IMG/VR virus record: IMGVR_UViG_3300026457_000105
Coordinates: 1 to 24,533 of that record
Direction: 5' to 3' (one strand)
Length of the DNA: 24,533 bases
Source of the DNA: a virus
Each line of letters begins with the position of its first letter. Position 1 is the stretch's first letter. Under the pieces are notes generated by a model. The model worked only from the letters and a program-made list of their open reading frames with translations. It made no database searches and was not told the DNA's origin. This document shows, piece after piece, positions 1 through 9,519 of the stretch. Made by a program: the position numbers and the translations under genes.

Positions 1-325
1 CCATTTCCTTGTATTGCCAATCGTGGAAACTCTCAAAATCCTTTTCAGGTTCTTTTGGAAGTTCAATAGTTCCCTTTGGCAAGGAGAACGATACATTTAT
101 TTCGCCATTGTAGCGAGTGTGAGCAGACAAGTCCTCTGCCTTAGAGATTTGACCAAGTGCTAACTTAGCAATCTCTTTGTTATACTTTTCTTGTGCCTTT
201 GAGAACTTTTCCTCATTGACTTTCTGATTAGCCTTATCCTTTTGGAGTTGGGCTAGTTTAGTTTCAAGTGCCTTGATTACTTTGGTCGTAGCAATCTTGA
301 CATTTATGGCTTTGCCTCTTGACAT
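1..325 (-). CDS. Hypothetical coiled-coil phage protein (partial, C-terminus outside window)
   Basis: An open frame runs from an ATG at 325 leftward off the window edge. It begins MSRGKAINVKIATTKVIKAL and is open for 108 codons. Residues about 10-65 are rich in Lys, Glu, Gln and Ala with heptad-like spacing (KALETKLAQLQKDKANQKV), suggesting a coiled coil. The later part (YNGEINVSFSLPKGTIELP) looks like beta strands. A good RBS (AGAAAGGAAAA) lies just upstream, and a 17-bp-spacer promoter is at 361-389. I have an impression of similar short proteins in actinobacteriophages but know no function. Confidence 0.75.
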   Translation of the reverse strand, partial: MSRGKAINVKIATTKVIKALETKLAQLQKDKANQKVNEEKFSKAQEKYNKEIAKLALGQISKAEDLSAHTRYNGEINVSFSLPKGTIELPKEPEKDFESFHDWQYKEM

Positions 326-360
326 TGTTTTCCTTTCTGTTTGGTGTTTGGGCTTATCCT

Positions 361-389
361 ATACTAGCATTTTCTAGTAAAGAAATCAA
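361..389 (-). promoter_or_regulatory. Leftward promoter for the gene at 1-325
   Basis: Minus strand: -35 TTGATT at 384-389, 17-bp spacer ending in TGC, and -10 TAGTAT at 361-366. The TGCTAGTAT extended -10 is the same as in the rightward promoter at 6452-6480. Confidence 0.65.
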
Positions 390-438
390 GTGAGCAGTTT
401 AGCCTCCACTTGCTCAGGTGGCGTTAGCGTTTGCTAAA

Positions 439-609
439 TTAGTTGGATTTAGGTGTCCAAGTAGTCCAGCGTGTAGCACCCTCAACATCTAAGCGAACAC
501 GAACATTACCATTTGCCTGTGGCACGATTTCCTTGATAACGCCTGTCTGCTTTGACTTTTGGCTTGTGTAGGTATCTCCTACTTTGTATAGTGCTGTATT
601 TACTGCCAT
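439..609 (-). CDS. Small basic hypothetical protein (56 aa)
   Basis: The frame begins MAVNTALYKVGDTYTSQKSK and ends TRWTTWTPKSN. It is strand-rich and basic, with a KVGDTYTSQKS...TGVIKEIV...VRVRLDV pattern that resembles a small SH3-like barrel or nucleic-acid-binding fold. This is inference from composition. The RBS AAAGGAG lies 7-8 nt before the ATG, and a promoter is at 643-671. I remember similar short proteins in actinobacteriophage genomes but no assigned function. Confidence 0.75.
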   Translation of the reverse strand: MAVNTALYKVGDTYTSQKSKQTGVIKEIVPQANGNVRVRLDVEGATRWTTWTPKSN

Positions 610-642
610 TTGTTTTTCTCCTTTTGTTAGGTTGATGTATTT

Positions 643-671
643 ATTATTTCATTTATTTTTGGGCTTGTCAA
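643..671 (-). promoter_or_regulatory. Leftward promoter for the gene at 439-609
   Basis: Minus strand: -35 TTGACA at 666-671, 17-bp spacer ending TGA, and -10 AATAAT at 643-648. A CRP-like palindrome at 706-721 lies about 77 bp upstream of the inferred start of transcription. Confidence 0.7.
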
Positions 672-683
672 GTTATTTCCCCC

Positions 684-703
684 TAAAATCTCAAAATGTG
701 AGA
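684..703. repeat. Copy 1 of a 20-bp intergenic repeat with internal TCTCA/TGAGA dyad
   Basis: TAAAATCTCAAAATGTGAGA here differs by one base from the copy at 3635-3654. Each copy lies a few bases from a CRP-like palindrome and upstream of a leftward promoter. It is probably a regulator-binding site. Confidence 0.6.
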
Positions 704-705
704 TA

Positions 706-721
706 TGTGAGGTAAATCACT
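706..721. promoter_or_regulatory. CRP/GlxR-like operator site
   Basis: TGTGAGGTAAATCACT matches TGTGA-N6-TCACA at 9 of 10 defined positions. It overlaps the 3' end of the 22-aa membrane-peptide gene by five bases and lies upstream of the leftward promoter at 643-671. Confidence 0.55.
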
Positions 722-785
722 TTCTATGTCCCATGCCTGCGAAAAACAAGGCTAAGACTAATAGTGTTATTATTAATACTTCCAT
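717..785 (-). CDS. 22-aa membrane micro-peptide
   Basis: The frame reads MEVLIITLLVLALFFAGMGH plus RK. It is one hydrophobic helix of about 17 residues followed by a positive C-terminal tail, so probably a single-span inner-membrane peptide. Its reality is supported by the strong RBS (AGAAAGGAAAG, about 5 nt from the ATG) and a good dedicated promoter at 807-835. Function is unknown; possibilities include modulating a host membrane protein or holin-like action, both speculative. Confidence 0.55.
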   Translation of the reverse strand: MEVLIITLLVLALFFAGMGHRK

Positions 786-806
786 GCTTTCCTTTCTGTT
801 TTTGCC

Positions 807-835
807 ATTGTAGCATTTTTAGGGGTATTTGGCAA
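807..835 (-). promoter_or_regulatory. Leftward promoter for the 22-aa membrane peptide
   Basis: Minus strand: -35 TTGCCA at 830-835, 17-bp spacer ending TGC, and -10 TACAAT at 807-812. Confidence 0.65.
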
Positions 836-850
836 GTCCCCCTAGATCCC

Positions 851-1570
851 CTACTTTTTCTTAGCAGAGAAAACTATATTTGCTTTATTTTCAATACACA
901 ATCCACACGATACACACGCAGAGCCAGCGGTAGAAATAAGCGGAATAGCCTTTTTATTCTCAGGGCATTTAGCGCCTACTTTACCAATCATCTCTTTCAT
1001 GTCTGACTGTCCTATTGCAAAAGTATCTGCAAGGTATGCTAATTTAATTCCTTTATCTTTATTAAGATTAATAGCAATTTCTTTATTCTCACTATCAGTA
1101 GAAAAATAGAGAGATAGGTTTTCGATACCCTTTAGCATATCTGCAGCGGCAGCCACACGGGTATATACCCAAAACTTTATATCAGGATTATTTAGAATGA
1201 CATGCTTCCATGCGAATGCATATTCATCTGAAAAGAAATCGCCATCCCAATGGATACGGAATAGCATAGGTGCGTCTTTCTTTTCACAATCTTTTCTGAA
1301 ATCATTAATCATATCTGTGAGCAATGCTTCCATAGTGTCATGGTCTGCGTCTTTTAGTAATTCCCAGTTATGAAGTAATACTTCTCTTACTCCTTTATAT
1401 ACCCTTTCAAGTTTTCCTGCGTAGCAGACTTTGCTACATACAGAGGTTTCACCAGGGCATGAGTAAGCCTTTCCACTAGGCAATCCAAAAGTGTTGGCAA
1501 TTGTTGGGGTCTTTCCATTTTTCGATACAGCATTAGTTACCTTTCTGTCCATGCTTCTTTTTAGTTTCAT
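851..1570 (-). CDS. Gp88-like phage protein, Cys-rich (239 aa)
   Basis: The protein has the hallmark of the phage Gene product 88 family: a KTPTIANTFGLPSGKAYSCPG segment (residues about 20-40) followed by C45 and C49 in VCSKVCYAGKLE. A second cluster at the C-terminus has C219, C222 and C225 (CVSCGLC), plus an isolated Cys in KCPEN. The paired clusters suggest metal or Fe-S binding, but the family has no reaction that I can name with confidence. The centre contains FRIHWDGDFFSDEYAFAWK and KFWVYTRV, which look like barrel strands. The start overlaps the stop of the upstream 48-aa gene as ATGA, and a promoter at 1593-1621 lies inside that upstream gene. Confidence 0.85.
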   Translation of the reverse strand: MKLKRSMDRKVTNAVSKNGKTPTIANTFGLPSGKAYSCPGETSVCSKVCYAGKLERVYKGVREVLLHNWELLKDADHDTMEALLTDMINDFRKDCEKKDAPMLFRIHWDGDFFSDEYAFAWKHVILNNPDIKFWVYTRVAAAADMLKGIENLSLYFSTDSENKEIAINLNKDKGIKLAYLADTFAIGQSDMKEMIGKVGAKCPENKKAIPLISTAGSACVSCGLCIENKANIVFSAKKK

Positions 1571-1713
1571 GAGCGCCTTTCTTTCTTTTCTAATTCTAAC
1601 ATTTTTTTGCTACTTTGTCTAGTGTATTTTTTCTTATTTAATTTTGGGGAAGCAGCATTAGATCGCCTTAATTCCATTAAGCGTCTTAGGTCTTCACTAC
1701 TCTTTTTAAACAT
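1567..1713 (-). CDS. Basic 48-aa hypothetical protein, likely leaderless
   Basis: The frame begins MFKKSSEDLRRLMELRRSNA and ends EKKERRS. It is very rich in Lys and Arg and predicted helical, so it may bind nucleic acid. Its stop overlaps the start of the Gp88-like gene by 4 bp (ATGA). There is no RBS: the -10 (TAAACT, 1719-1724) ends only 5 bp before the ATG, so the mRNA would begin at the start codon. The ATGA overlap and promoter placement favour a real gene, but the length is short. Confidence 0.5.
   Translation of the reverse strand: MFKKSSEDLRRLMELRRSNAASPKLNKKKYTRQSSKKMLELEKKERRS
1593..1621 (-). promoter_or_regulatory. Leftward promoter for the Gp88-like gene
   Basis: Minus strand: -35 TAGACA at 1616-1621, 17-bp spacer ending TGT, and -10 TAGAAT at 1593-1598. 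It lies inside the 48-aa gene, giving the Gp88-like gene a second start of transcription. Confidence 0.6.
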
Positions 1714-1718
1714 AATCT

Positions 1719-1747
1719 AGTTTAACATTTTTAGGGGAAAAAATCAA
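1719..1747 (-). promoter_or_regulatory. Leftward promoter, leaderless start at 1713
   Basis: Minus strand: -35 TTGATT at 1742-1747, 17-bp spacer ending TGT, and -10 TAAACT at 1719-1724. The inferred transcription start coincides with the ATG at 1713. Two AAAACGGAC boxes lie upstream at 1764-1781. Confidence 0.55.
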
Positions 1748-1795
1748 ATCGTACTTAATTCACAAAACGGACAAAACGGACGGGTCGGGGGGTTT

Positions 1796-2029
1796 TTATT
1801 CAGTCTCTACAAAAACATACCATTTAACTTTATCATCTTCAGTTAAAAACAATTCTGTTTCATCACCAAAGTCATCAGATAAAATTAATTGATATCCTTC
1901 TTTTGTTTCATTAATTGAAACGACTGTCAATAAATTATCCTCTACCTCAATTAGATCTTCTTCCATTAATTGATTAGGAAAAAGATAATCAGCGAAGCGT
2001 AGTTCCATGTTTGTCATTGTAGCAGTCAT
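1796..2029 (-). CDS. Acidic hypothetical phage protein (77 aa)
   Basis: From the ATG at 2029 the protein begins MTATMTNMELRFADYLFPNQ and is strongly acidic toward the end (FGDETELFLTEDDK). I chose 2029 because it makes a 4-bp ATGA overlap with the gene before it; an in-frame ATG 15 bp earlier is possible. The pattern of a predicted strand-rich region (NLLTVVSINETKEGYQLIL) followed by FGDE resembles short actinophage proteins of unknown function. It is the last gene of the unit starting at 2790. Confidence 0.75.
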   Translation of the reverse strand: MTATMTNMELRFADYLFPNQLMEEDLIEVEDNLLTVVSINETKEGYQLILSDDFGDETELFLTEDDKVKWYVFVETE

Positions 2030-2235
2030 TTTATAGATACCCACCCATTTCTATAAAAAGTTTTGGTATACATTTTACCAATAGGGTCTGATAGGTTGTA
2101 AGTAGCATATTCTTTAGCATCGCCAAAGTCTACGCATTTATTCCAAGCATTTACAATTTCTAGTAAATCTGCGGTGCGTGTTGTTGATACAAGTTCTCCG
2201 TCATAGGAGATAGTTAGAGAATAGTTATATTCCAT
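2026..2235 (-). CDS. Hypothetical phage protein, YSLTISYDGELVSTTRT family (69 aa)
   Basis: The protein begins MEYNYSLTISYDGELVSTTR and continues with a helical segment LLEIVNAWNKCVDFGDAKEY and ATYNLSDPIGKMYTKTFYRNG. I recognise this pattern from short conserved actinobacteriophage proteins without known function. The start at 2235 is chosen over one 21 bp upstream because it sits right after the upstream stop (TAAAATG) with a GAGAGG RBS in the end of that gene. Confidence 0.8.
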   Translation of the reverse strand: MEYNYSLTISYDGELVSTTRTADLLEIVNAWNKCVDFGDAKEYATYNLSDPIGKMYTKTFYRNGWVSIK

Positions 2236-2236
2236 T

Positions 2237-2536
2237 TTAGTAGTCCTCTCTTTCAATAATCCAAGCGTCTAAGTGGTGATTAGAAATAATAGCATGGGCA
2301 GGTGCGCTAGTCAAACCTCTCCAAGATACGCCTTCAGGCAGGGGAATTTCTAAGTCCCATAGTCCTAAATCATTTACGGCGTCAATAGCCTCAATACAAG
2401 GTTGAACCATTGACTTAGGTACGGGTGGATAGTGATTAGCAGATAAGTGAATACCTATCTGAGTTTCTAAATCTAGGTGAATACCTAAATCCTCTAGTGT
2501 TCCGTCTGCCATTTCAGTAGCAAAATTACTTCCCAT
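2237..2536 (-). CDS. Conserved hypothetical phage protein, FATEMADGTLEDLG family (99 aa)
   Basis: The protein begins MGSNFATEMADGTLEDLGIH, then LSANHYPPVPKSMVQPCIEA and LPEGVSWRGLTSAPAHAIIS. This set of motifs is familiar from actinobacteriophage genomes; function unknown. The start at 2536 follows the upstream stop as TAAAATG with a GGAGG RBS inside the upstream gene's last codons, so an 11-residue upstream extension is rejected. The two genes are probably translationally coupled. Confidence 0.85.
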   Translation of the reverse strand: MGSNFATEMADGTLEDLGIHLDLETQIGIHLSANHYPPVPKSMVQPCIEAIDAVNDLGLWDLEIPLPEGVSWRGLTSAPAHAIISNHHLDAWIIEREDY

Positions 2537-2537
2537 T

Positions 2538-2762
2538 TTAGTTAGCCTCCATAGTTCCAAATATAGCAAGTTCAGGCTCAGTTAGCAAGCCGTTGTCCCA
2601 AATAACGTCTCCGTCTTGGTCTAAGATAATATCATAGAGATTACACTCACAACTTTCAGCGTCAAAGTAGTCCTCTCCATTTCCGTAGTAGTGATAACCT
2701 GTGCCATTACAAATATGGCAACTCTTTATTAGGCGTAGAGCCAATTCAAGTTTTTCTGTCAT
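2538..2762 (-). CDS. Small zinc-ribbon-like protein (74 aa)
   Basis: CHICNGTGYHYYGNGEDYF followed by ESCECN (residues about 15-40) forms a CxxC...CxC set like one half of a DnaJ-type zinc finger, so Zn binding is likely. The rest is acidic. The Cys module is clearly shared with the rightward 36-aa gene at 7126 (CxxCNGxG...G...DY...CEC). It is the first gene of a four-gene leftward unit with an AGAAAGGAAA RBS and a promoter at 2790-2818. Partner or target unknown. Confidence 0.8.
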   Translation of the reverse strand: MTEKLELALRLIKSCHICNGTGYHYYGNGEDYFDAESCECNLYDIILDQDGDVIWDNGLLTEPELAIFGTMEAN

Positions 2763-2789
2763 TAGTTTATTTCCTTTCTTTATAAATAA

Positions 2790-2818
2790 ATCCTATCATG
2801 GGGGACTGACAAAATCAA
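2790..2818 (-). promoter_or_regulatory. Leftward promoter with TGTCAG-type spacer
   Basis: Minus strand: -35 TTGATT at 2813-2818, spacer TTGTCAGTCCCCCATGA, and -10 TAGGAT at 2790-2795. It drives 2762 down to 1796 and belongs to the WTGTCAGT spacer family. Confidence 0.7.
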
Positions 2819-2832
2819 ATCCCCCACGCCTT

Positions 2833-3330
2833 TTACCATGAAGAAGTGTAGTAAAAGGACAATTTGGACATTTCAGGCAATTCAAGCACACGCTTCAGTT
2901 TCTTGATAGTGTCCTTGATATCTGCCCAATACCATTCATCGATATCATATGAGCCAAAGAAAAATCCTGGCTGTGGTGGCAATAGATTAGGGTCTTTATT
3001 GAATAGAGCCTGTTGGCAGGTAGTCAATAATTCTTTCAATTTCTCATGGGATACATAGTAATCACCGCAGTCATCTTCACCCTGTTGTACATTATCTACA
3101 AACCATTTGTGTATCTGATTAGCCTTGCGCCAATAAGCACAAGTTACATCTACATGAACGCCATAGATATCAGTAGCAACACCTGCCATTCCAGCAGTAT
3201 CTACAATATCATTCCAAAGTGGATTAATCACTTCAGGGCTGTCCATACTTATATCGTTATCACGATCAAGTTTATTCCAGTCAATTTTTTCCACATACTT
3301 TCTAGCGTGGAGATACATATCTAGTCCCAT
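2833..3330 (-). CDS. Conserved phage protein, MGLDMYL...YWRKANQIHKWF family (165 aa)
   Basis: The N-terminus MGLDMYLHARKY, the block CAYWRKANQIHKWFVDN (64-80), DDCGDYYV (86-93) and PGFFFGSYDIDEWYW (121-135) mark a widespread family of phage-encoded proteins of unknown function. It is soluble, with no signal peptide. It is the second gene of a unit, 16 bp after the gene at 3347-3562, with its own GAAGGAAAA RBS. No catalytic motif is recognised. Confidence 0.9.
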   Translation of the reverse strand: MGLDMYLHARKYVEKIDWNKLDRDNDISMDSPEVINPLWNDIVDTAGMAGVATDIYGVHVDVTCAYWRKANQIHKWFVDNVQQGEDDCGDYYVSHEKLKELLTTCQQALFNKDPNLLPPQPGFFFGSYDIDEWYWADIKDTIKKLKRVLELPEMSKLSFYYTSSW

Positions 3331-3346
3331 TTATTTTCCTTCTTTC

Positions 3347-3562
3347 TTAGTAGTCTGAAACTCTTACGGCAACTGTAGCCCACTCATCTTTTAGTGAGCC
3401 TGTTGGGCGATAGCGAATAGCAAAGTGTTCCCACCCTTCAGGTGGATAAGTGTCCTCACGCTTTTCAGCGAAGTTTATTATGCCACCATTGAAACGGCGG
3501 CGTAGTGAAGTAGGCGCATAGTATTGGTCTACTAGTAAATCAACAATAGAATAACCTCTCAT
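3347..3562 (-). CDS. Hypothetical protein, IRPTxSL family, copy A (71 aa)
   Basis: The protein begins MRGYSIVDLLVDQYYAPTSL and ends YRPTGSLKDEWATVAVRVSD plus Y. It is a paralog of the gene at 4513-4716: both share YSI..LLV, an AEK centre, (I/Y)RPT.SL and a terminal T.AV(R/K)VSD. No function known. An AGAAAGGAAAAAA RBS and a promoter at 3594-3622 make it first in its unit. Confidence 0.8.
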   Translation of the reverse strand: MRGYSIVDLLVDQYYAPTSLRRRFNGGIINFAEKREDTYPPEGWEHFAIRYRPTGSLKDEWATVAVRVSDY

Positions 3563-3593
3563 TGTTTTTTCCTTTCTTTATTTTCAGGCTTCC

Positions 3594-3622
3594 AGCCTAT
3601 CATTTTCTACTGACATTTTCAA
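3594..3622 (-). promoter_or_regulatory. Leftward promoter with TGTCAG spacer and ACGGCGTGTCG upstream box
   Basis: Minus strand: -35 TTGAAA at 3617-3622, spacer ATGTCAGTAGAAAATGA, and -10 TAGGCT at 3594-3599. The box ACGGCGTGTCG (minus strand, 3625-3635) sits 2 bp upstream of the -35, exactly as at the rightward promoter 6773-6801. Confidence 0.7.
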
Positions 3623-3634
3623 ATCGACACGCCG

Positions 3635-3654
3635 TAAAATCTCAAAATCTGAGA
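3635..3654. repeat. Copy 2 of the 20-bp intergenic repeat with TCTCA/TGAGA dyad
   Basis: TAAAATCTCAAAATCTGAGA, one mismatch to 684-703. It is placed between a leftward promoter and a CRP-like site, in the same order as copy 1. Confidence 0.6.
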
Positions 3655-3663
3655 AAATATTTT

Positions 3664-3679
3664 CGTGATTATAATCACA
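3664..3679. promoter_or_regulatory. CRP/GlxR-like operator site
   Basis: CGTGATTATAATCACA contains a perfect 14-bp palindrome (GTGATTATAATCAC) and matches TGTGA-N6-TCACA at 9 of 10 positions. It lies about 84 bp upstream of the inferred start from 3594-3622. Confidence 0.55.
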
Positions 3680-3691
3680 TTCCCCTTAAAG

Positions 3692-3708
3692 TTATCCACA
3701 TATCCACA
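3692..3708 (+). other. Two tandem DnaA-box-like 9-mers
   Basis: TTATCCACA (3692-3700) is the consensus DnaA box. ATATCCACA (3700-3708) overlaps it by one base and differs from consensus at one position. They lie in a non-coding gap with AT-rich flanks. A role in phage replication initiation or DnaA titration is possible; two boxes alone do not define an origin. Confidence 0.4.
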
Positions 3709-3767
3709 GGGTCGGGGCATTTAGTTGAAATTTCAAGCAGTTTTAAATCATGCTTAGGATCTGAAAA

Positions 3768-3869
3768 CTACAATCCGTTTTCTTTTATATCTTGAATCAT
3801 TAATCGCACAAGATAAATTGTTACAGTTAGCAAAGATAACTGAACGATAGTTGTTAGAAATCTACTCAT
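3768..3869 (-). CDS. 33-aa single-span membrane peptide
   Basis: The peptide is MSRFLTTIVQLSLLTVTIYL followed by VRLMIQDIKENGL. A hydrophobic helix (about residues 4-21) is flanked by Arg, with a charged C-terminal tail. Its ATG overlaps the stop of the upstream gene (ATGA), so it is likely translationally coupled as the last gene of the five-gene unit from 4716. Function unknown. Confidence 0.6.
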   Translation of the reverse strand: MSRFLTTIVQLSLLTVTIYLVRLMIQDIKENGL

Positions 3870-4057
3870 GCTGGAATTAATCCTAACTCATCAATGCCAC
3901 ACGCTTTTTCAAATCGTGCTTTATCAAATCGCTCATTATCAGAAGCAAAATATTGTGCGAATTCCTCTACTAAATCTTCAAAAACTGCTGGGTGAATTTC
4001 CTCTGAAAATCCACGCAGAATGTCTGAAGTTTTTACATAGTCTTTTCTAGTCATCAT
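3866..4057 (-). CDS. Conserved phage protein, MTRKDYV...FAQYF family (63 aa)
   Basis: MTRKDYVKTSDILRGF, then FEDLVEEFAQYFASDNERFD and FEKACG, is a pattern I recognise from many short phage proteins, all helical and acidic and of unknown function. It starts with tandem ATGs. The first (4057) overlaps the upstream stop as TAATG with a GAGGAGAA RBS inside the upstream gene; the second may also be used. Confidence 0.85.
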   Translation of the reverse strand: MMTRKDYVKTSDILRGFSEEIHPAVFEDLVEEFAQYFASDNERFDKARFEKACGIDELGLIPA

Positions 4058-4314
4058 TAGTTATTCTCCTCATCTAATAGAATGAAAGCATGAGTGCCAC
4101 CATCATTTACACGCTCTAATTCTGCGAGTAATTCGTTACGAGTAAATTTAGAAGCGTTACCTATGATTTCTGTAACTGCTTGAATGTTCATGTCGTTGAT
4201 AACCTGAACGGGTAGCATAGCAATTCTGCCTGCGAATGGTGAATCATTATGTATGCGAGAAATAAATTTCACGCCATTAGTAGTGAATGGATAGTCTGTA
4301 TAAGTTGTGTTCAT
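4057..4314 (-). CDS. Hypothetical phage protein (85 aa)
   Basis: From 4314 the protein begins MNTTYTDYPFTTNGVKFISR and ends HAFILLDEENN. An N-terminal strand-like part is followed by a helical part (FTRNELLAELERV). The start at 4314 overlaps the upstream stop (TAATG) with AAAGGAAAA before it; an upstream 16-residue extension into the previous gene is rejected. Function unknown. Confidence 0.8.
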   Translation of the reverse strand: MNTTYTDYPFTTNGVKFISRIHNDSPFAGRIAMLPVQVINDMNIQAVTEIIGNASKFTRNELLAELERVNDGGTHAFILLDEENN

Positions 4315-4496
4315 TATTTTAGTTTTCCTTTCAGAGTTCCTCTTACGCCAAGTAGGTCGCAAGAAATTTTTACAGAGATACCTTGTGGTAATTGTTCAGG
4401 GTAAGTAGAAATAAATTGTGCTACTGCGCCTTTAGAGGGAAGTGTGATAGTTTTTACTGAACCATTGAAGGTTTCAATTTTTACAGGATAGTTCAT
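4314..4496 (-). CDS. Hypothetical protein, SCDLLGVRGTLKG family, copy A (60 aa)
   Basis: The protein begins MNYPVKIETFNGSVKTITLP and ends KISCDLLGVRGTLKGKLK. It shares length and layout with the rightward gene at 7348 (KITCDILGIDGYLQG), so the two are paralogs on opposite strands. The 50-aa product at 6958 has the same opening layout (KIET...NG...T..L..PS). Its own RBS AAGGAAAAC precedes the ATG. Function unknown. Confidence 0.8.
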   Translation of the reverse strand: MNYPVKIETFNGSVKTITLPSKGAVAQFISTYPEQLPQGISVKISCDLLGVRGTLKGKLK

Positions 4497-4512
4497 TGTT
4501 AGTTTTCCTTTC

Positions 4513-4716
4513 TTAGTCTGAAACTTTTACAGCGAGAGTGCGATAAGTATTACGCAGAGAATTAGTAGGGCGAATTTCTACAAGATAACTTTCGCAATTC
4601 TCATACCATACAGCGTGAGGGTGCTTTTCAGCATTTACAATTTCTCCCACTACTGAGCGAGAGCGATAAGTTTTTCCTACAAGTAGATTTTCTATTGAAT
4701 AGACATTTGCGGACAT
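4513..4716 (-). CDS. Hypothetical protein, IRPTxSL family, copy B (67 aa)
   Basis: The protein begins MSANVYSIENLLVGKTYRSR and ends VEIRPTNSLRNTYRTLAVKV plus SD. It is a paralog of 3347-3562. It is first in a five-gene leftward unit (4716 to 3768), with an AAAGGGGAAC RBS and a promoter at 4758-4786. Function unknown. Confidence 0.8.
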   Translation of the reverse strand: MSANVYSIENLLVGKTYRSRSVVGEIVNAEKHPHAVWYENCESYLVEIRPTNSLRNTYRTLAVKVSD

Positions 4717-4757
4717 TTAGTTCCCCTTTCAAGAGACTTTCATTTTCTTACTCTGTA

Positions 4758-4786
4758 AGTTTAGCATTTATCAGCGACAAAATCAA
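4758..4786 (-). promoter_or_regulatory. Leftward promoter for the unit 4716-3768
   Basis: Minus strand: -35 TTGATT at 4781-4786, spacer TTGTCGCTGATAAATGC (a variant of the TGTCAG spacer), and -10 TAAACT at 4758-4763. Confidence 0.65.
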
Positions 4787-4822
4787 ATCCAAAATGCTAT
4801 CAAAACGGACATTTTGAAAAAA

Positions 4823-4838
4823 TGAGAGATTTATCACA
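4823..4838. promoter_or_regulatory. CRP/GlxR-like operator site
   Basis: TGAGAGATTTATCACA matches TGTGA-N6-TCACA at 9 of 10 positions. It lies about 79 bp upstream of the inferred start from 4758-4786, with an AAAACGGACA box at 4802-4811. Confidence 0.5.
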
Positions 4839-4859
4839 TCTTACGTAAGGTGCGACACG

Positions 4860-4874
4860 CCCGAATGCGTCGGG
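4860..4874 (-). terminator. Short GC hairpin after the unit 5493-4901
   Basis: CCCGA, 5-nt loop, TCGGG. It lies about 26 bp past the stop at 4901 in the leftward direction. There is no T-tract in that direction, so termination is uncertain. Confidence 0.35.
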
Positions 4875-4900
4875 GCATTTTTATGCAGTGCTATGAATTT

Positions 4901-4987
4901 TTATTCATCAATCTCATCTAGCAATTCCAAAAGAATTGGTTCTAATTCTTTTGCAGCGAGATCTAATTTTTCTTGTAGCGTTTTCAA
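4901..4987 (-). CDS. 28-aa acidic helical peptide with TTG start
   Basis: MKTLQEKLDLAAKELEPILL then ELLDEIDE (TTG start). It is leucine/glutamate-rich and amphipathic, probably one helix or a coiled coil. The start is supported by an AAAAGGAG RBS about 7 nt upstream and by a TTGA overlap with the preceding stop. Last gene of its unit. Function unknown. Confidence 0.5.
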   Translation of the reverse strand: MKTLQEKLDLAAKELEPILLELLDEIDE

Positions 4988-5100
4988 TTGTAACTCCTTT
5001 TACATTCTGAGCAAACAAAATTAATTTTGCAATAGCAACCTACTGCAAGTAGATTATCATTCTGATAGTCATAGTAGTCATCATAGAAATCTTTTTTCAT
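4984..5100 (-). CDS. 38-aa Tyr/Asp-rich peptide with CxC and CxxC
   Basis: MKKDFYDDYYDYQNDNLLAV then GCYCKINFVCSECKRSYN. An acidic aromatic N-terminus is followed by a Cys module CYC...CSEC, suggesting a minimal zinc knuckle. The RBS GAAAGGATAA precedes the ATG, and the stop overlaps the TTG of the next gene by 4 bp. Function unknown. Confidence 0.6.
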   Translation of the reverse strand: MKKDFYDDYYDYQNDNLLAVGCYCKINFVCSECKRSYN

Positions 5101-5104
5101 TTAT

Positions 5105-5260
5105 TTATCCTTTCACGCAGCATGAACAATGGGTAGGTAGAGAGAATAAGTACTTTAGCAAAGCCTTACGCTCAGACATAGAAATTTCAGGGTGATAGTT
5201 TTTTACACCACCATGCTGATATTCATATACGATTTTATCTAGTGTATTTTGAGATAACAT
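5105..5260 (-). CDS. 51-aa hypothetical protein with C-terminal CxCC
   Basis: MLSQNTLDKIVYEYQHGGVK, then a helical SMSERKALLKYLFSLPTHCS and CCVKG. The start overlaps the upstream stop (TAATG). The end (THCSCCVKG) may contribute to metal binding. Function unknown. Confidence 0.65.
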   Translation of the reverse strand: MLSQNTLDKIVYEYQHGGVKNYHPEISMSERKALLKYLFSLPTHCSCCVKG

Positions 5261-5493
5261 TAGGCATACACTCCTTTCGCAATTAGAGAGTCTAACTTAG
5301 CAGATAGTTCATCTGCTTCATCTGAAACCCATTCAGAGATTTCATAGGTAGTCATGAATTCAGCAAGAGTCATTAGACCCTTGTATTCATTACAAGATAC
5401 GCAGAAATTTTCATTAGCGTATTGTGAGCAGAAGCAACATACGATTTTATTAGCGTATGAAGCAGGTAAAGTGTTTATTGTATAGTGAGTCAT
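5260..5493 (-). CDS. Small zinc-ribbon protein (77 aa)
   Basis: The N-terminal half has CCFCSQYANENFCVSCNEYKG (about residues 19-39): two CxxC pairs separated by 8 residues, typical of a zinc ribbon. The C-terminal half is an acidic helix (SEWVSDEADELSAKLDSLIA). It is first in a four-gene unit with an AAAGGAG RBS and a promoter at 5542-5570. A DNA- or protein-binding adapter is plausible but inferred. Confidence 0.8.
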   Translation of the reverse strand: MTHYTINTLPASYANKIVCCFCSQYANENFCVSCNEYKGLMTLAEFMTTYEISEWVSDEADELSAKLDSLIAKGVYA

Positions 5494-5541
5494 TTTGACT
5501 CCTTTCTTTGAGATAACCTTTATCTCATCTTGATAGTATCT

Positions 5542-5570
5542 ATCCTAACATAGACCACTGACATTCTACT
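5542..5570 (-). promoter_or_regulatory. Leftward promoter with TGTCAG spacer for the unit 5493-4901
   Basis: Minus strand: spacer ATGTCAGTGGTCTATGT and -10 TAGGAT at 5542-5547. The -35 position (5565-5570, AGTAGA) is poor, so the spacer motif or an activator may replace it. Confidence 0.6.
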
Positions 5571-5592
5571 GACGAGTATGCGTACAAAACGG

Positions 5593-5606
5593 ACATTTCG
5601 AAATGT
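5593..5606. repeat. Perfect 14-bp palindrome ACATTTCGAAATGT
   Basis: It overlaps the AAAACGGACA box (5586-5595) and the CRP-like site (5604-5619). The equivalent positions at 4809-4823 and 6358-6373 hold looser versions. Confidence 0.45.
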
Positions 5607-5619
5607 GATTCGTATCACA
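5604..5619. promoter_or_regulatory. CRP/GlxR-like operator site (perfect)
   Basis: TGTGATTCGTATCACA is an exact TGTGA-N6-TCACA match. Its centre is about 76 bp upstream of the inferred start from 5542-5570. Confidence 0.6.
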
Positions 5620-5643
5620 CGCCCCGACCTTTAGGATCGGGCG
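5620..5643. terminator. Strong GC-rich hairpin
   Basis: CGCCCCGA ... TCGGGCG with an inner CC-TTTA-GG (one bulged C). TTTT follows on the plus strand. It lies 14 bp past the stop of the leftward gene at 5658, where it would act without a U-tract. Confidence 0.5.
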
Positions 5644-5657
5644 TTTTAGTGTAGAAA

Positions 5658-5804
5658 TTACTCTACATCTAAAACTGTAAATGCATCAAACTTTTCTAAT
5701 TCTTCATCAGAAAGTTTATGCAAAATTTTGTTTAAACTAAACACTGCATCAATATCAGTTTCAGCATCAGTTACAAAACTAATTAAAACATTTTTCTTAG
5801 TCAA
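5658..5804 (-). CDS. 48-aa conserved phage protein with TTG start
   Basis: MTKKNVLISFVTDAETDIDA, then VFSLNKILHKLSDEELEKFD and AFTVLDVE. The KKNVLISF opening and D.VFSLNK...LSDEEL pattern is familiar from actinophage small proteins. The TTG is 8-9 nt after GGGGGA and overlaps the previous gene by 8 bp; no ATG fits. Last gene of its unit, followed by the hairpin at 5620-5643. Confidence 0.65.
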   Translation of the reverse strand: MTKKNVLISFVTDAETDIDAVFSLNKILHKLSDEELEKFDAFTVLDVE

Positions 5805-6006
5805 GGTAAATTCCCCCTTTCACATTTTTATGATTTACACACACATTACCTTTTGGAATTGGTGTGTGGCACTTGAAGCAAAGCATTTGCATAGGTGCTT
5901 TAGTTACGATTGCTAATTCAAGGTCTAGCAATTCTGCAGTGGTAGCATCTTCAATGTCTACCCACCCTGCACCCTCATTATTCATGCGGAAAATTTCTAT
6001 TGACAT
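5797..6006 (-). CDS. Small zinc-ribbon protein (69 aa)
   Basis: MSIEIFRMNNEGAGWVDIED is followed by a helix (TTAELLDLELAIV) and a C-terminal CFKCHTPIPKGNVCVNH set. The CxxC...C.NH residues could bind one Zn. The RBS AGAAAGGATAA precedes the ATG, 14 bp after the upstream gene. Function unknown. Confidence 0.75.
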   Translation of the reverse strand: MSIEIFRMNNEGAGWVDIEDATTAELLDLELAIVTKAPMQMLCFKCHTPIPKGNVCVNHKNVKGGIYLD

Positions 6007-6020
6007 TTAGTTATCCTTTC

Positions 6021-6281
6021 TTAGAGATTACAAGCGACATGTTCGCTATGTGTATGATTTTTTTCTATGCAATTTTTTCTTAGTTCATGGAAACTACTGC
6101 AACGCATTTCGTGATAGTTTATCCAATCTTTATGGACTACCTTATCACAAGTTAGGCAGAAGTGCCATTTGTGGTTATCTTTTTTGATAACCTTTCCGTC
6201 TACTACATCGTAGCGTTCAACGAATTTTTTAGAGTGTGAGCAATCATTTACTCTACATTTATTTACTTTAGTGTTAGTCAT
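6021..6281 (-). CDS. Zinc-finger-like protein (86 aa)
   Basis: From 6281 it begins MTNTKVNKCRVNDCSHSKKF. It contains C..(4)C.H, then KWHFCLTCDKVVHKDWINYH and MRCSS, so two Cys/His clusters. The start is chosen for its AGAAAGGTTAGG RBS; a longer 40-residue extension would run through the promoter and is rejected. First gene of the unit driven by 6316-6344. A nucleic-acid-binding role is plausible. Confidence 0.75.
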   Translation of the reverse strand: MTNTKVNKCRVNDCSHSKKFVERYDVVDGKVIKKDNHKWHFCLTCDKVVHKDWINYHEMRCSSFHELRKNCIEKNHTHSEHVACNL

Positions 6282-6315
6282 TTTTAGACCTAACCTTTCT
6301 TTATTTGATACTAGT

Positions 6316-6344
6316 ATCCTAACACCTACCACTGACATTTTGAG
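6316..6344 (-). promoter_or_regulatory. Leftward promoter with TGTCAG spacer for the unit 6281-5658
   Basis: Minus strand: -35-position CTCAAA (6339-6344), spacer ATGTCAGTGGTAGGTGT, and -10 TAGGAT at 6316-6321. An AAAACGGACA box is at 6351-6360 with two abutting CRP-like sites just beyond. Confidence 0.65.
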
Positions 6345-6370
6345 GGGTATAAAACGGACATTGTGGACAT

Positions 6371-6402
6371 TGTGATGTAAGACACATGTGATGTAGACCA
6401 CA
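6371..6402. promoter_or_regulatory. Two abutting CRP/GlxR-like operator sites
   Basis: TGTGATGTAAGACACA (6371-6386) is followed without a gap by TGTGATGTAGACCACA (6387-6402). Each matches TGTGA-N6-TCACA at 9 of 10 positions. Confidence 0.55.
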
Positions 6403-6414
6403 GCGCCCGACCCG

Positions 6415-6430
6415 TGTGGTGTAAATCACA
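6415..6430. promoter_or_regulatory. CRP/GlxR-like operator site, rightward promoter
   Basis: TGTGGTGTAAATCACA, 9 of 10 positions. Its centre is about 64.5 bp upstream of the inferred start of the rightward promoter 6452-6480. Confidence 0.55.
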
Positions 6431-6451
6431 TGCGACACGCCGTGCTAGGAC

Positions 6452-6480
6452 TTGACTTTTGGAGGGTAGTGTGCTAGTAT
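6452..6480 (+). promoter_or_regulatory. First rightward early promoter
   Basis: -35 TTGACT, 17-bp spacer ending TGC, and -10 TAGTAT (6475-6480). A CGACACGCCGT box is at 6433-6443. It is divergent from 6316-6344 and drives the gene at 6568. Confidence 0.75.
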
Positions 6481-6567
6481 TCTACTATAGAAAATTAAAT
6501 AAGGGTAGAAATAGTAAATAGGCGAAATCCCTGCCACTAGAATTAAAAAAAAGAAAGGTGGTCTCAA

Positions 6568-6744
6568 ATGACTACATTAACACTCAATGATAAAATCGCT
6601 ATCGCTGCAGAAAAGGTAGCCAATGGCGAACTAGTATCCTTTAGAGGTGCTAGTGTTACTACATACGCTAAGGTTATGCGCCTTGCTAATAGAATTAAGC
6701 AAGAGCGAGAATTCCCACAATGCCCATGTGGAGAGTGTGACTAA
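6568..6744 (+). CDS. 58-aa hypothetical protein with C-terminal CPCGEC
   Basis: MTTLTLNDKIAIAAEKVANG, then a helical TTYAKVMRLANRIKQEREFP and QCPCGECD. The last residues form CxCxxC, a likely metal site. The RBS AAGAAAGGTGG is 9 nt upstream of the ATG. It is transcribed from 6452-6480 and probably ends before the hairpin at 6754-6766. Function unknown. Confidence 0.7.
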   Translation: MTTLTLNDKIAIAAEKVANGELVSFRGASVTTYAKVMRLANRIKQEREFPQCPCGECD

Positions 6745-6753
6745 CACCACACA

Positions 6754-6766
6754 ACGCCTACGGCGT
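6754..6766. terminator. Small hairpin ACGCC-tac-GGCGT
   Basis: Perfect 5-bp stem with 3-nt loop, 9 bp past the stop at 6744. Its right arm is part of the ACGGCGTGTCG box (6760-6770) next to the following promoter, so it may be regulatory rather than a terminator. Confidence 0.3.
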
Positions 6767-6772
6767 GTCGTC

Positions 6773-6801
6773 TTGACTTTTGGCGGTATGTCTGATAGGA
6801 T
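6773..6801 (+). promoter_or_regulatory. Second rightward early promoter
   Basis: -35 TTGACT, 17-bp spacer beginning TTTGGCGG (compare TTTGGAGG at 6458) and ending TGA, and -10 TAGGAT at 6796-6801. ACGGCGTGTCG lies 2 bp upstream. Confidence 0.7.
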
Positions 6802-6836
6802 ACTCAGTATCAAAACTAAATAAAGGACACAAGGCT

Positions 6837-6891
6837 AATGAGCCTAAGCAAATAAGTGTGATACAAATCACAATGAGCCTTAGCAAATAAG
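6837..6891 (+). repeat. Direct repeat of a 20-bp MSLSK mini-ORF flanking a CRP-like site
   Basis: AATGAGCCTAAGCAAATAAG (6837-6856) and AATGAGCCTTAGCAAATAAG (6872-6891) differ at one base. Both read ATG AGC CTN AGC AAA TAA (MSLSK, stop); the change is synonymous. The first has AAAGGA about 10 nt upstream. Between them lies the operator at 6857-6872. It may be a leader mini-cistron pair or simply a duplication. Confidence 0.5.
6857..6872. promoter_or_regulatory. CRP/GlxR-like operator site (perfect)
   Basis: TGTGATACAAATCACA, an exact TGTGA-N6-TCACA match. Its centre is about 64.5 bp upstream of the inferred start of the promoter 6894-6922. Confidence 0.6.
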
Positions 6892-6893
6892 TA

Positions 6894-6922
6894 GCCAAAA
6901 TGTCAGCCCCCTAGTATAAGAT
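6894..6922 (+). promoter_or_regulatory. Third rightward promoter with TGTCAG spacer
   Basis: Spacer ATGTCAGCCCCCTAGTA and -10 TAAGAT (6917-6922). The -35 position GCCAAA is poor, which fits an activator-dependent promoter. Confidence 0.55.
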
Positions 6923-6957
6923 AGAACTATAAACAGAAAGAAAGAATAGGAAATAAA

Positions 6958-7110
6958 ATGAAAATCGAAACAGCAATTTGGAATGGTAAGAAAACACGAG
7001 TATTGGCAGTGCCATCATTCTCATCATCAGAGGAAGCCCTAGAGTTTCTAAAAGAGATACAGAAATTAGATAAAGACGCTACTCTTACTATCACCTCAGT
7101 AAGTCAGTAA
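6958..7110 (+). CDS. 50-aa hypothetical protein
   Basis: MKIETAIWNGKKTRVLAVPS, then a helix (SSEEALEFLKEIQKL) and a last strand (DATLTITSVSQ). The layout (two strands, helix, strand) resembles the 60-aa proteins at 7348 and 4314. The RBS AGAAAGAATAGG precedes the ATG. First gene of the unit from 6894-6922. Confidence 0.7.
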   Translation: MKIETAIWNGKKTRVLAVPSFSSSEEALEFLKEIQKLDKDATLTITSVSQ

Positions 7111-7125
7111 GAAAGGATAACTAAA

Positions 7126-7236
7126 ATGATAAACTCAGTTTATGTAGCAGAATGCTCAACATGTAACGGCAAAGGCATGGTGTTCTTTGGCGATAACTAT
7201 GATTACTCAATAGAGCCTTGCGAGTGTGTTGCGTGA
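7126..7236 (+). CDS. 36-aa zinc-knuckle peptide, relative of 2538-2762
   Basis: MINSVYVAECSTCNGKGMVF, then FGDNYDYSIEPCECVA. CSTCNGKG...G...DY...CEC aligns with CHICNGTG...G...DY...CEC in the leftward 74-aa protein. The RBS GAAAGGATAA lies 5-6 nt before the ATG. The stop overlaps the next start (GTGA). It is probably a minimal Zn-binding module. Confidence 0.7.
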   Translation: MINSVYVAECSTCNGKGMVFFGDNYDYSIEPCECVA

Positions 7237-7406
7237 TATCTGAAAGAGATAGACGCAGAGCACACCTAGAAGCAGGGGGTACCATAGAAAACTATGACCG
7301 CTCACATTACCCCCAATGGTACAAAGATAAATTAGAAAAGGAAAGAAATGAAACTAACAATAACAAGCATGGCAGGCAACACCAGCACAATGGAATTGCC
7401 AACTAA
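7233..7406 (+). CDS. Hypothetical basic protein with GTG start (57 aa)
   Basis: MISERDRRRAHLEAGGTIEN, then YDRSHYPQWYKDKLEKERNE and a His/Asn-rich tail. The GTG at 7233 overlaps the previous stop by 4 bp (GTGA); an in-frame TTG at 7218 is less likely. The first 40 residues look like a genuine phage protein (RDRRRAHLEAGGT...YDRSHYP). The tail overlaps the next gene by 59 bp and may be poorly conserved. Confidence 0.6.
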   Translation: MISERDRRRAHLEAGGTIENYDRSHYPQWYKDKLEKERNETNNNKHGRQHQHNGIAN

Positions 7407-7530
7407 AGAAAATGTATTTTATTTTATTGACTTATACAAAAAGTCACTAAAGAAAAATCAACGTGTAAAAATTACATGTGATATTTTAGGAATTGACGGA
7501 TACCTACAGGGTACAGCGCCTTTGCGCTGA
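7348..7530 (+). CDS. Hypothetical protein, SCDLLGVRGTLKG family, copy B (60 aa)
   Basis: MKLTITSMAGNTSTMELPTK, then FYFIDLYKKSLKKNQRVKIT and CDILGIDGYLQGTAPLR. Paralog of the leftward gene at 4314-4496 (same length, same TCDILGIDG / SCDLLGVRG core). The RBS AAAAGGAAAG is inside the previous gene. A hairpin CAGCGC-cttt-GCGCTG (7514-7529) covers its last codons. Confidence 0.75.
   Translation: MKLTITSMAGNTSTMELPTKENVFYFIDLYKKSLKKNQRVKITCDILGIDGYLQGTAPLR
7514..7529 (+). terminator. Hairpin at end of early rightward cluster
   Basis: Perfect 6-bp stem CAGCGC/GCGCTG with a 4-nt loop, overlapping the stop codon. A run of eight Ts starts about 20 bp later. This is not a textbook terminator but is plausible. 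Confidence 0.4.
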
Positions 7531-7612
7531 TCCTTGTGGTGTGCTCACTATTTTTTTTATTTTTATTTTTATAAATCATGCATCATACATCTTAGAAAAA
7601 TTTTCAGATTTT

Positions 7613-7621
7613 TGCTATAAT
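7613..7621 (+). promoter_or_regulatory. Extended -10 promoter, leaderless start at 7628
   Basis: TGCTATAAT, 6 bp before the ATG. No clear -35. First of the perfect TGnTATAAT class. Confidence 0.65.
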
Positions 7622-7627
7622 AAAAAC

Positions 7628-7786
7628 ATGACCTTTTGCAAACATGTATATCAAGAAATGGAAGAAGAGATTTGCCCTATTTGTGGCGGGTATACACATA
7701 AACTAGATTGGGCATATCAAGCAGAGTTACATAGAGAATGGATCGCATCTGGAAAAGCCACATTACAGGGCTGGTGGTCTATTTGA
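7628..7786 (+). CDS. Zinc-ribbon protein CPICGGYTHKLDW family (52 aa), leaderless
   Basis: MTFCKHVYQEMEEEICPICG, then GYTHKLDWAYQAELHREWIA and a GWWSI end. C4/H6 with CPIC can bind one Zn; the G.TH...DW...LH.EW pattern is familiar from small marine-phage proteins. The start at 7628 is chosen because a perfect TGCTATAAT ends 6 bp before it and there is no RBS; 45 extra upstream codons would run through the promoter. Confidence 0.75.
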   Translation: MTFCKHVYQEMEEEICPICGGYTHKLDWAYQAELHREWIASGKATLQGWWSI

Positions 7787-7866
7787 AATTTGCGGCGGTA
7801 TTATTACTAGCAATTTTTATATTTTTAAACTACATGGCATATCTACAACAACAGTCCTGGGGATAA
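7783..7866 (+). CDS. 27-aa membrane peptide with TTG start
   Basis: MKFAAVLLLAIFIFLNYMAY, then LQQQSWG. It is a single hydrophobic helix. The TTG overlaps the preceding stop by 4 bp (TTGA) with a GGTGG RBS-like sequence just upstream. Function unknown; it may be membrane-targeted. Confidence 0.5.
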   Translation: MKFAAVLLLAIFIFLNYMAYLQQQSWG

Positions 7867-8073
7867 CTACCATTTCCCTATAGGACAATATGCTTTTTCT
7901 AATTGTGTTTTTAATTTCATAAAACATCCACACTTTTTACATCTCTGGGATAATTTAGAAAAATGTTCACAACCTCTGCATATTTCAAGGCGGTATGCAG
8001 CCAATTCTTCTGGCGATCTTGGAGAACCATTAATTAAATCCCAAGGTGTAACATCCTTATTGTCTGAAGACAT
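7867..8073 (-). CDS. Cys-rich phage protein, CRGCEHF...CPIGKW family (68 aa)
   Basis: CRGCEHFSKLSQRCKKCGCF (about residues 32-51), then MKLKTQLEKAYCPIGKW. The CxxC, CxxCxC and final CP are a metal-binding set known in many phage and some bacterial small proteins (possibly the DUF6171 group; name from memory). The start at 8073 (ATG) is preferred over a TTG 24 bp upstream. It overlaps the 28-aa membrane peptide upstream by 17 bp. Confidence 0.8.
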   Translation of the reverse strand: MSSDNKDVTPWDLINGSPRSPEELAAYRLEICRGCEHFSKLSQRCKKCGCFMKLKTQLEKAYCPIGKW

Positions 8074-8143
8074 TTTTAATAATACTCCATATGCCAATAC
8101 TAATTATCAGAGCAATGCTCATTTCTAACAAAAACTCCCACAT
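8057..8143 (-). CDS. 28-aa membrane peptide, leaderless
   Basis: MWEFLLEMSIALIISIGIWS, then IIKNVFRQ. A hydrophobic helix with a basic C-terminal end. A perfect TATAAT (8150-8155) ends 6 bp before the ATG, so the mRNA would be leaderless. It overlaps the start of the Cys-rich gene in another frame. Function unknown. Confidence 0.5.
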   Translation of the reverse strand: MWEFLLEMSIALIISIGIWSIIKNVFRQ

Positions 8144-8149
8144 CCTTTA

Positions 8150-8178
8150 ATTATAGCCTATGCCAGAGATAAACACAA
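8150..8178 (-). promoter_or_regulatory. Leftward promoter for 8143-7867
   Basis: -10 TATAAT at 8150-8155, 17-bp spacer, and a weak -35 TTGTGT at 8173-8178. Divergent from 8283-8291. Confidence 0.55.
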
Positions 8179-8183
8179 CTTTC

Positions 8184-8219
8184 TAGACATAGTGTATGCT
8201 TGCATACATTGTTTGTCTA
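8184..8219. promoter_or_regulatory. Nested palindrome between divergent promoters
   Basis: A perfect 16-bp palindrome TGTATGCTTGCATACA (8193-8208) is enclosed by TAGACA (8184-8189) and TGTCTA (8214-8219). It is centred between the leftward promoter at 8150 and the rightward one at 8283, as expected for an operator. Confidence 0.5.
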
Positions 8220-8282
8220 TAGGAAGGTTTGTAACTCTATTTTCGGCTTCGGTTTATACCCGCCGAATTTTATCTCAAATAA

Positions 8283-8291
8283 TGATATAAT
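8283..8291 (+). promoter_or_regulatory. Extended -10 promoter, leaderless start at 8299
   Basis: TGATATAAT, 7 bp before the ATG at 8299. No good -35. Confidence 0.65.
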
Positions 8292-8298
8292 TCATTTC

Positions 8299-8526
8299 AT
8301 GACTGCACAAGATTGGGCTGGAATGATTTTAACGGTTTTGTCCATAATTGGCATTGTCGGAGTAGGTGCGAGGTGGATTGTGAAAAAATACGTCGAAGAG
8401 ATTTTGTCCGAACTTAAGCCAAATTCTGGATCAAGTTTAAAAGATCAGGTTACACGGCTTGAAGATAAAATGGATAAAGTGTTTGATTTAATGATTGACC
8501 ATCTTAAAGATCACCCTAGCAAATAA
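8299..8526 (+). CDS. Holin-like single-span membrane protein (75 aa)
   Basis: MTAQDWAGMILTVLSIIGIV is followed by GVGARWIVKKYVEE, then a coiled coil (SSLKDQVTRLEDKMDKVFDL). One N-terminal membrane helix (about residues 7-27) plus a charged cytoplasmic-type tail is common in small phage membrane proteins near lysis genes. Holin function is inferred from topology only, and the lysozyme-like gene is 10 kb away. The start at 8299 fits the promoter 7 bp upstream; 33 extra upstream codons would cross it. Confidence 0.7.
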   Translation: MTAQDWAGMILTVLSIIGIVGVGARWIVKKYVEEILSELKPNSGSSLKDQVTRLEDKMDKVFDLMIDHLKDHPSK

Positions 8527-8674
8527 TTACTATTTACTATATATATAATATATAAAGATATTTAATTTATTAAGATATTTCTTTTTTCTTTATATATTTA
8601 AATTATACACTTAATATCCTGGCTTGTCAAGTCAATTCCTGGTTTTCTTTATAACTTTTTGATAACTTTTAATA
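8527..8674. other. Very AT-rich spacer between convergent genes
   Basis: Almost pure A/T from 8530 to 8612, including TATATATAATATATA and two AAGATATTT copies. No ORF with an RBS. It contains the orphan promoter at 8602-8630. Confidence 0.6.
8602..8630 (-). promoter_or_regulatory. Perfect-consensus orphan promoter, antisense to 8299-8526
   Basis: Minus strand: TTGACA (8625-8630), exactly 17 bp, TATAAT (8602-8607), with TG one base further (AAGTG before TATAAT). No gene follows: transcription would run into the 3' end of the holin-like gene on the opposite strand. Confidence 0.65.
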
Positions 8675-9391: not shown

Positions 9392-9407
9392 ATTACCCCC
9401 TTAGTAA

Positions 9408-9436
9408 ATTCTAGCACAAATAATGTTATAATTCAA
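9408..9436 (-). promoter_or_regulatory. Leftward promoter for 9391-8675
   Basis: Minus strand: -35 TTGAAT at 9431-9436, 17-bp spacer ending TGC, and -10 TAGAAT at 9408-9413. It overlaps the rightward -10 at 9427-9432. Confidence 0.65.
9424..9432 (+). promoter_or_regulatory. Extended -10 promoter in front of a non-coding hairpin
   Basis: TGTTATAAT. The inferred start is near 9439. No ORF starts before the next promoter at 9503, so it would make a short RNA or a long leader. Confidence 0.55.
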
Positions 9437-9438
9437 AT

Positions 9439-9503
9439 TGCTGGCACCCTAGGTTGCTCTCTACCCACCCCCACTGCCCCTAGGGTGTTCAGCCTTATTT
9501 TGT
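9439..9503 (+). ncRNA. Candidate small RNA or structured leader with C-rich loop
   Basis: CACCCTAGG (9445-9453) and CCTAGGGTG (9479-9487) are a perfect 9-bp inverted repeat around a 25-nt pyrimidine-rich loop. The loop has C-runs that could pair with G-rich ribosome-binding sites. TTATTTT follows. It is locally much richer in G+C than the surroundings. It could instead be a terminator, an operator or a DNA-processing site. Confidence 0.4.
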
Positions 9504-9511
9504 GATATAAT
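9503..9511 (+). promoter_or_regulatory. Extended -10 promoter for the 9520 unit
   Basis: TGATATAAT, 8 bp before the ATG at 9520 and with no RBS in between, so the mRNA is leaderless or nearly so. Confidence 0.65.
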
Positions 9512-9519
9512 CAAACATT

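Follow-up and report, generated by a model that had tools for sequence, protein, structure and literature searches.

We analysed a virus sequence of 24,533 nucleotides (record IMGVR_UViG_3300026457_000105 of the IMG/VR database; 24.5 kb, GC content 38%), which we refer to as the window, and found in it nine near-perfect copies of the palindrome TGTGA-N6-TCACA. These CRP-type sites are probably operators for a CRP/GlxR-type activator of the host, which the phage would use to start its early operons. The comparison with related viruses suggests that a clade of freshwater phages switches on its first genes with a host activator, through near-perfect sites placed upstream of most early promoters.

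CRP-type sites in the window and its relatives

We counted a site when it matched at least nine of the ten defined positions. All nine sites of the window are within positions 1-8200, where Markov models of order 1 to 3 give 0.31-0.41 expected sites (maximum 3 in 200 draws), and positions 8201-24533 contain none. When two mismatches were allowed, 14 sites were found against 16.5 by chance, which is no excess, and the signal therefore resides in the near-perfect sites. The original prediction had listed eight sites with 9 or 10 matches. All eight were present, but the list was incomplete, as a ninth site at 6736 had been overlooked; this site overlaps the stop codon of the open reading frame (ORF) at 6568-6744. 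The sites are listed without strand, and their centres are given relative to the inferred transcription start.

706..721, CRP-type site TGTGAGGTAAATCACT, 9/10, centre -77.5, upstream of the leftward promoter at 643..671
3664..3679, CRP-type site CGTGATTATAATCACA, 9/10, centre -84.5, leftward
4823..4838, CRP-type site TGAGAGATTTATCACA, 9/10, centre -79.5, leftward
5604..5619, CRP-type site TGTGATTCGTATCACA, 10/10, centre -76.5, leftward
6371..6386, CRP-type site TGTGATGTAAGACACA, 9/10, inner member of a tandem pair, centre -69.5, leftward
6387..6402, CRP-type site TGTGATGTAGACCACA, 9/10, outer member of the pair, centre -85.5, in phase, leftward
6415..6430, CRP-type site TGTGGTGTAAATCACA, 9/10, centre -64.5, rightward
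6736..6751, CRP-type site TGTGACTAACACCACA, 9/10, centre -64.5, rightward, the ninth site
6857..6872, CRP-type site TGTGATACAAATCACA, 10/10, centre -64.5, rightward

Positions 1-19059 of the window match the end of G001, a 54.6-kb virus contig, at 99.995% identity; this contig continues the same phage and carries more CRP-type sites past the left edge of the window. Further relatives were gathered via a single gene, whose best cultured relatives are in cluster A mycobacteriophages and Streptomyces phages (about 50-56% identity), yielding 80 related virus loci (1.12 Mb).

851..1570, minus strand, GP88-family gene (PF17338), the anchor for gathering relatives

The 80 loci contain 763 sites with at least nine matches, 350 of them perfect, whereas the averages for 29 letter-permuted palindromes are 49 and 2.4. 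The spacer of 6 alone is enriched, and the other spacers from 0 to 12 stay near background. In an alignment of 403 nonredundant sites, the spacer prefers T-n-TA-n-A, with T/A favoured at both central positions, which upholds the central TA of the original prediction. This spacer fits the GlxR consensus of Corynebacterium glutamicum, TGTGANNTANNTCACA (PMC4254451). Together, the palindrome, the specificity for spacer 6 and the T-n-TA-n-A pattern support the earlier assignment to CRP/GlxR-type operators. Intergenic DNA makes up 27% of the loci and holds 495 of the 763 sites. The relatives of 108-117 kb have their intergenic sites within approximately 10-20 kb around the GP88 gene, taken here as the early region, and the few sites elsewhere are mostly in coding DNA. 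The strong enrichment in early intergenic DNA that had been anticipated was thus seen, and the motif is not equally frequent in coding DNA or controls.

Helical phasing of the sites and the TGTCAG element

The flanks of the 403 nonredundant sites show two strong promoter forms. One is TTGACt-17-TAtaAT, and the other combines TTGAAA with a TGTCAG downstream of it and an extended -10 element, TGnTAgaaT. The promoter model scored 248 flanks above threshold, compared with 3 shuffled flanks. Site centres are most frequent 53.5-54.5, 64.5, 74.5 and 84.5-85.5 bp upstream of the inferred start, and when periods between 6 and 16 bp were scanned without constraint, 10.50 bp gave the best fit (vector strength R 0.70, n=195, null maximum 0.20). 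When one distance was kept per cluster of similar flanks, a small independent sample (n=32), R was 0.595 and the null maximum 0.514; therefore, shared ancestry is not the whole explanation. The sites lie upstream of the -35 element on one helical face, at distances one turn apart with a period of 10.5 bp. This phasing is the signature of an activator that contacts RNA polymerase from one face of the helix, not of a repressor. A protein bound upstream of -35 on one face, with several turns allowed, has to touch RNA polymerase, and repressors or decoys have no such need.

Many early promoters of the clade have the TGTCAG element, at approximately -28 to -23, just 3' of the -35 and together with an extended -10; the element is confined to the early region. 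The reading of TGTCAG as the -35 element itself was rejected, as its period was weak with the strict pattern and the base composition places TGTCAG 3' of the true -35. We scanned all viruses, without reference to GP88, for a perfect site followed by TGTCAG 20-50 bp on, and obtained at least 190 nonredundant cases. Their gaps concentrate at 28 (at least 42), 38 (at least 44), 48-49 (at least 37) and 33-34 bp (at least 24), which repeats, among the matches listed, the gap peaks of the GP88-seeded set. The corresponding virus-wide scan with TTGACT was noisier (R 0.27 at 10.5 bp), with the largest peaks at gaps of 10 and 21. The fetched loci contain 664 nonredundant TGTCAG-N10-TANNNT promoters, and 397 of these have a site with at least nine matches within 94 bp upstream, against 2 in shuffled sequence; this set includes loci fetched for having a site, and the GP88 loci alone give 124 of 204. 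Promoters of this class with a single site (n=339) have gaps of 28 (73), 38 (74) and 48-49 bp (64), with a vector strength of 0.75. Many of the out-of-phase sites at gaps of 33-34 have an in-phase partner 16 bp farther out, as at 6371 and 6387 of the window.

In the window, the promoters were assigned by sequence-model scoring and their starts are inferred. TGTCAG is present near 3611, 5554 and 6331 in leftward promoters and near 6901 in a rightward one.

643..671, minus strand, inferred promoter TTGACA-17-AATAAT, site 706 centred at -77.5
3594..3622, minus strand, inferred promoter TTGAAA-17-TAGGCT with TGTCAG element, site 3664 at -84.5
4758..4786, minus strand, inferred promoter TTGATT-17-TAAACT, site 4823 at -79.5, out of the family phase
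5542..5570, minus strand, inferred promoter with TGTCAG and extended -10 TAGGAT, site 5604 at -76.5
6316..6344, minus strand, inferred promoter with TGTCAG and TGTTAGGAT extended -10, shared by sites 6371 and 6387
6452..6480, plus strand, inferred promoter TTGACT-17-TAGTAT, site 6415 at -64.5
6773..6801, plus strand, inferred promoter TTGACT-17-TAGGAT, site 6736 at -64.5
6894..6922, plus strand, inferred promoter GCCAAA-17-TAAGAT with TGTCAG downstream of the -35, site 6857 at -64.5

This independent scoring (-64.5 to -85.5) agrees with the placement of the centres about 64-86 bp upstream of the start in the original prediction, and the activator-type placement proposed there is borne out by the phasing across hundreds of promoters. 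The distance of about -64.5 for rightward sites holds, but for three sites (6415, 6736 and 6857) rather than two. The proposal of about one site per early promoter is roughly right, given the 124 of 204 promoters in the GP88 loci. Some promoters have no site, and by eye these include leftward ones near 2790 and 1600 of the window.

Several other elements accompany the sites. Tandem sites exactly 16 bp apart, thus on opposite helix faces, with the inner at -69.5 and the outer at -85.5, occur at 6371-6402 of the window and in other loci (L003, L007, L036 and others). The element AAAACGGACATT (ATGTCCGTTTT) is repeated between the CRP-type site and the promoter of leftward operons, at about 4803, 5586, 6353 and 1757 of the window. 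The motif ATGTCCG occurs 90 times in the flanks of the nonredundant sites. An inverted repeat, TCTCA-N5-TGAGA, is beside two CRP-type sites of the window (about 690-705 and 3637-3655), with 33 cases in the flanks of relatives.

Source of the activator

We searched the relatives for a phage-encoded reader of the sites. The cyclic nucleotide-binding (cNMP; PF00027) and HTH_Crp (PF13545) domains are absent from all 30 relatives searched (1.9 Mb, several of at least 100 kb). A phage-encoded CRP was rejected on this basis, and the mimic that the original prediction had considered finds no support, with no CRP-family gene in these relatives. Sigma-70 region 2 is absent from 25 relatives, so a phage sigma factor for the TGTCAG promoters was also rejected. 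Among 117 early-region proteins of four relatives, no helix-turn-helix (HTH) family of Pfam or PHROGs was found, only WhiB, and in a fifth relative (50 proteins) none was among the matches listed. The first-wave promoters need a factor that is present at infection, and a host protein is therefore its simplest source.

The WhiB gene is present in 19 of 30 relatives, including G001, and in the control set C. glutamicum was the only positive; therefore, the phages of this clade probably infect actinobacteria. In the freshwater literature, whiB is a marker of actinophages, and Ca. Nanopelagicales have a GC content of 42% (PMC6802176). A candidate host order came from a related 4.7-kb contig (L129) that was binned in a 1.3-Mb actinobacterial metagenome-assembled genome (MAG). 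The evidence, including the low GC of the complete genome G054, suggests that this order is Ca. Nanopelagicales. A cNMP-binding protein above the cut-off is found in 75 of 81 genomes of the order, nearly always a CRP of about 230-260 amino acids. M. tuberculosis CRP has exactly the same recognition helix as this CRP, LVGASRETVNKAL, which is of the GlxR type. In this order of streamlined actinobacteria, to which genome G031 belongs, CRP retains an intact-looking cyclic nucleotide pocket.

We propose that a dimer of host CRP would occupy the palindrome on one helix face, 50-85 bp ahead of the start, and would recruit host RNA polymerase in a class-I-like geometry, with a contact to the alpha C-terminal domain that is suggested by the phasing only. 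Its targets would be the two promoter forms, TTGACt-17-TAtaAT or TTGAAA with TGTCAG and the extended -10, ahead of genes that are presumably early.

Several results weigh against a host CRP in this role. The window includes sites that break the phase, namely 4823 (-79.5) and 6371 (-69.5), of which 6371 has an in-phase tandem partner. Perfect sites are not in excess in the 81 genomes of the candidate order. In the complete genome G054 (1.16 Mb), one intergenic site with at least nine matches was found compared with 2.6 in controls, and no CRP-like palindrome stood out in a de novo search. Class III adenylate cyclase is absent from 61 genomes of the order, in a search that covered class III only. 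The link to this candidate host comes from WhiB and a single binned 4.7-kb contig. Finally, the register of E. coli class I CRP promoters (lac type) is not reproduced. Those promoters also have the palindrome upstream of -35 with distance steps of one turn, at -61.5, -71.5 and -82.5. The phage sites lie about 3 bp farther upstream of starts that are themselves inferred, and membership in the E. coli class is therefore not claimed. Unlike the E. coli class, the phage clade also uses -53.5 and adds the TGTCAG element.

Of the host motif match that had been foreseen, the recognition helix stands and the motif excess in candidate-order chromosomes does not. Perfect GlxR sites occur in only 23 of 247 Actinomycetota genomes. 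The suggested coupling of early genes to the cyclic AMP (cAMP) state of the host is unsupported, given the missing class III cyclase and motif excess; cAMP dependence is not indicated, and the protein may bind constitutively. The true host may be another actinobacterium, the phages may use a host CRP that has few sites of its own, or the reader may be a viral factor of unknown fold. A scan of genome contigs for GP88 hit mixed MAGs and Geodermatophilus chromosomes and is not decisive for the host. GP88 homologues are found within Geodermatophilus and Blastococcus chromosome contigs (L122-L127), and CRP-type sites are not nearby.

A more specific version is tentative. A widespread clade of freshwater actinophages might have built its own early promoter class, a phased near-consensus CRP site plus TGTCAG, on a cAMP-independent host CRP, in streamlined hosts that have neither class III adenylate cyclase nor consensus sites of their own. 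If so, the phages would own a larger and cleaner CRP regulon than their host. This would raise the questions of why the phage sites are better than those of the presumed host and what CRP senses in a bacterium that lacks the usual adenylate cyclase. The hundreds of natural promoters with sites stepped by whole turns are a test set for activation by actinobacterial CRP, and the promoter signature can be used to find and link such phages.

Known systems and alternative readings

The GlxR operators of C. glutamicum share the consensus and act mostly in activation (PMC4254451), and the CRP of the candidate host is of the same type. They differ in that the sites described here are on phage genomes, are perfect in many cases and form a dedicated early regulon, and in that the candidate host chromosome has neither such a regulon nor a class III cyclase. 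Action of host CRP on a phage is already known from phage T1, whose pir, dam and recE promoters are repressed by host cAMP-CRP (PMC6737242). Repression in T1 contrasts with the activation geometry over the whole early region of the present clade. In a limited literature search, which is not proof of novelty, we found no published phage-wide early regulon of phased CRP sites.

A less favoured alternative is an activator of unknown fold that the phage itself encodes and whose specificity would have converged on that of CRP or replaced it, with TGTCAG read by a second phage factor, so that the early code is wholly viral. The candidate host genome is enriched in neither the CRP motif nor TGTCAG promoters (7 against 6.3 in the control for the latter). 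None of 296 genomes of the candidate order has the combined code of CRP site and TGTCAG, and across 397 genomes of the phylum it occurs in one; the code therefore names no host. Many early proteins also lack a family match. On the other side are the early proteins surveyed above, in which WhiB was the only regulator family recognised and neither cNMP, HTH_Crp nor another HTH was seen, the simplicity of a host protein for first-wave promoters, and the agreement of the motif with GlxR down to the spacer.

Cluster A mycobacteriophages, in which a related GP88 is also present, have stoperators, asymmetric sites for a repressor, and it is improbable that the clade sites are repression operators of this kind. 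In both systems many sites are dispersed between genes, near-identical and among early genes in the clade, and the two GP88 proteins share about 55% identity. However, the clade sites are symmetric palindromes, lie upstream of the -35 and not over it, and are helically phased to promoters. No repressor family was recognised among the early proteins, and Daishi, a cluster A phage, has a single site, as does a stretch of a Streptomyces phage, which is the level of chance. Even less probable is a decoy, in which the near-consensus sites mainly titrate host CRP off host genes. The phage sites are far nearer to the consensus than any in the candidate host chromosome, but titration does not need the fixed distance and helical phase to promoters and could be a side effect. 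Chance or a compositional artefact of AT-rich intergenic DNA, to which the unremarkable count at two mismatches would correspond, is ruled out by the more than tenfold excess of near-perfect sites over shuffled and permuted controls and by the recurrence of the pattern in 80 relatives.

Elsewhere in the window, the genes at 8675-9391 (minus strand) and 13473-14213 (plus strand) form a pair that is similar by eye. The former belongs to phrog_7084; halophages, HF1/HF2 among them, have relatives of it at about 35%, and other isolate phages have none above threshold. Modules of tail-fibre-like genes (phrog_5906 and phrog_2295) are duplicated at 10995-13042 and 16540-18341, with DNA stretches that are 77-87% identical.

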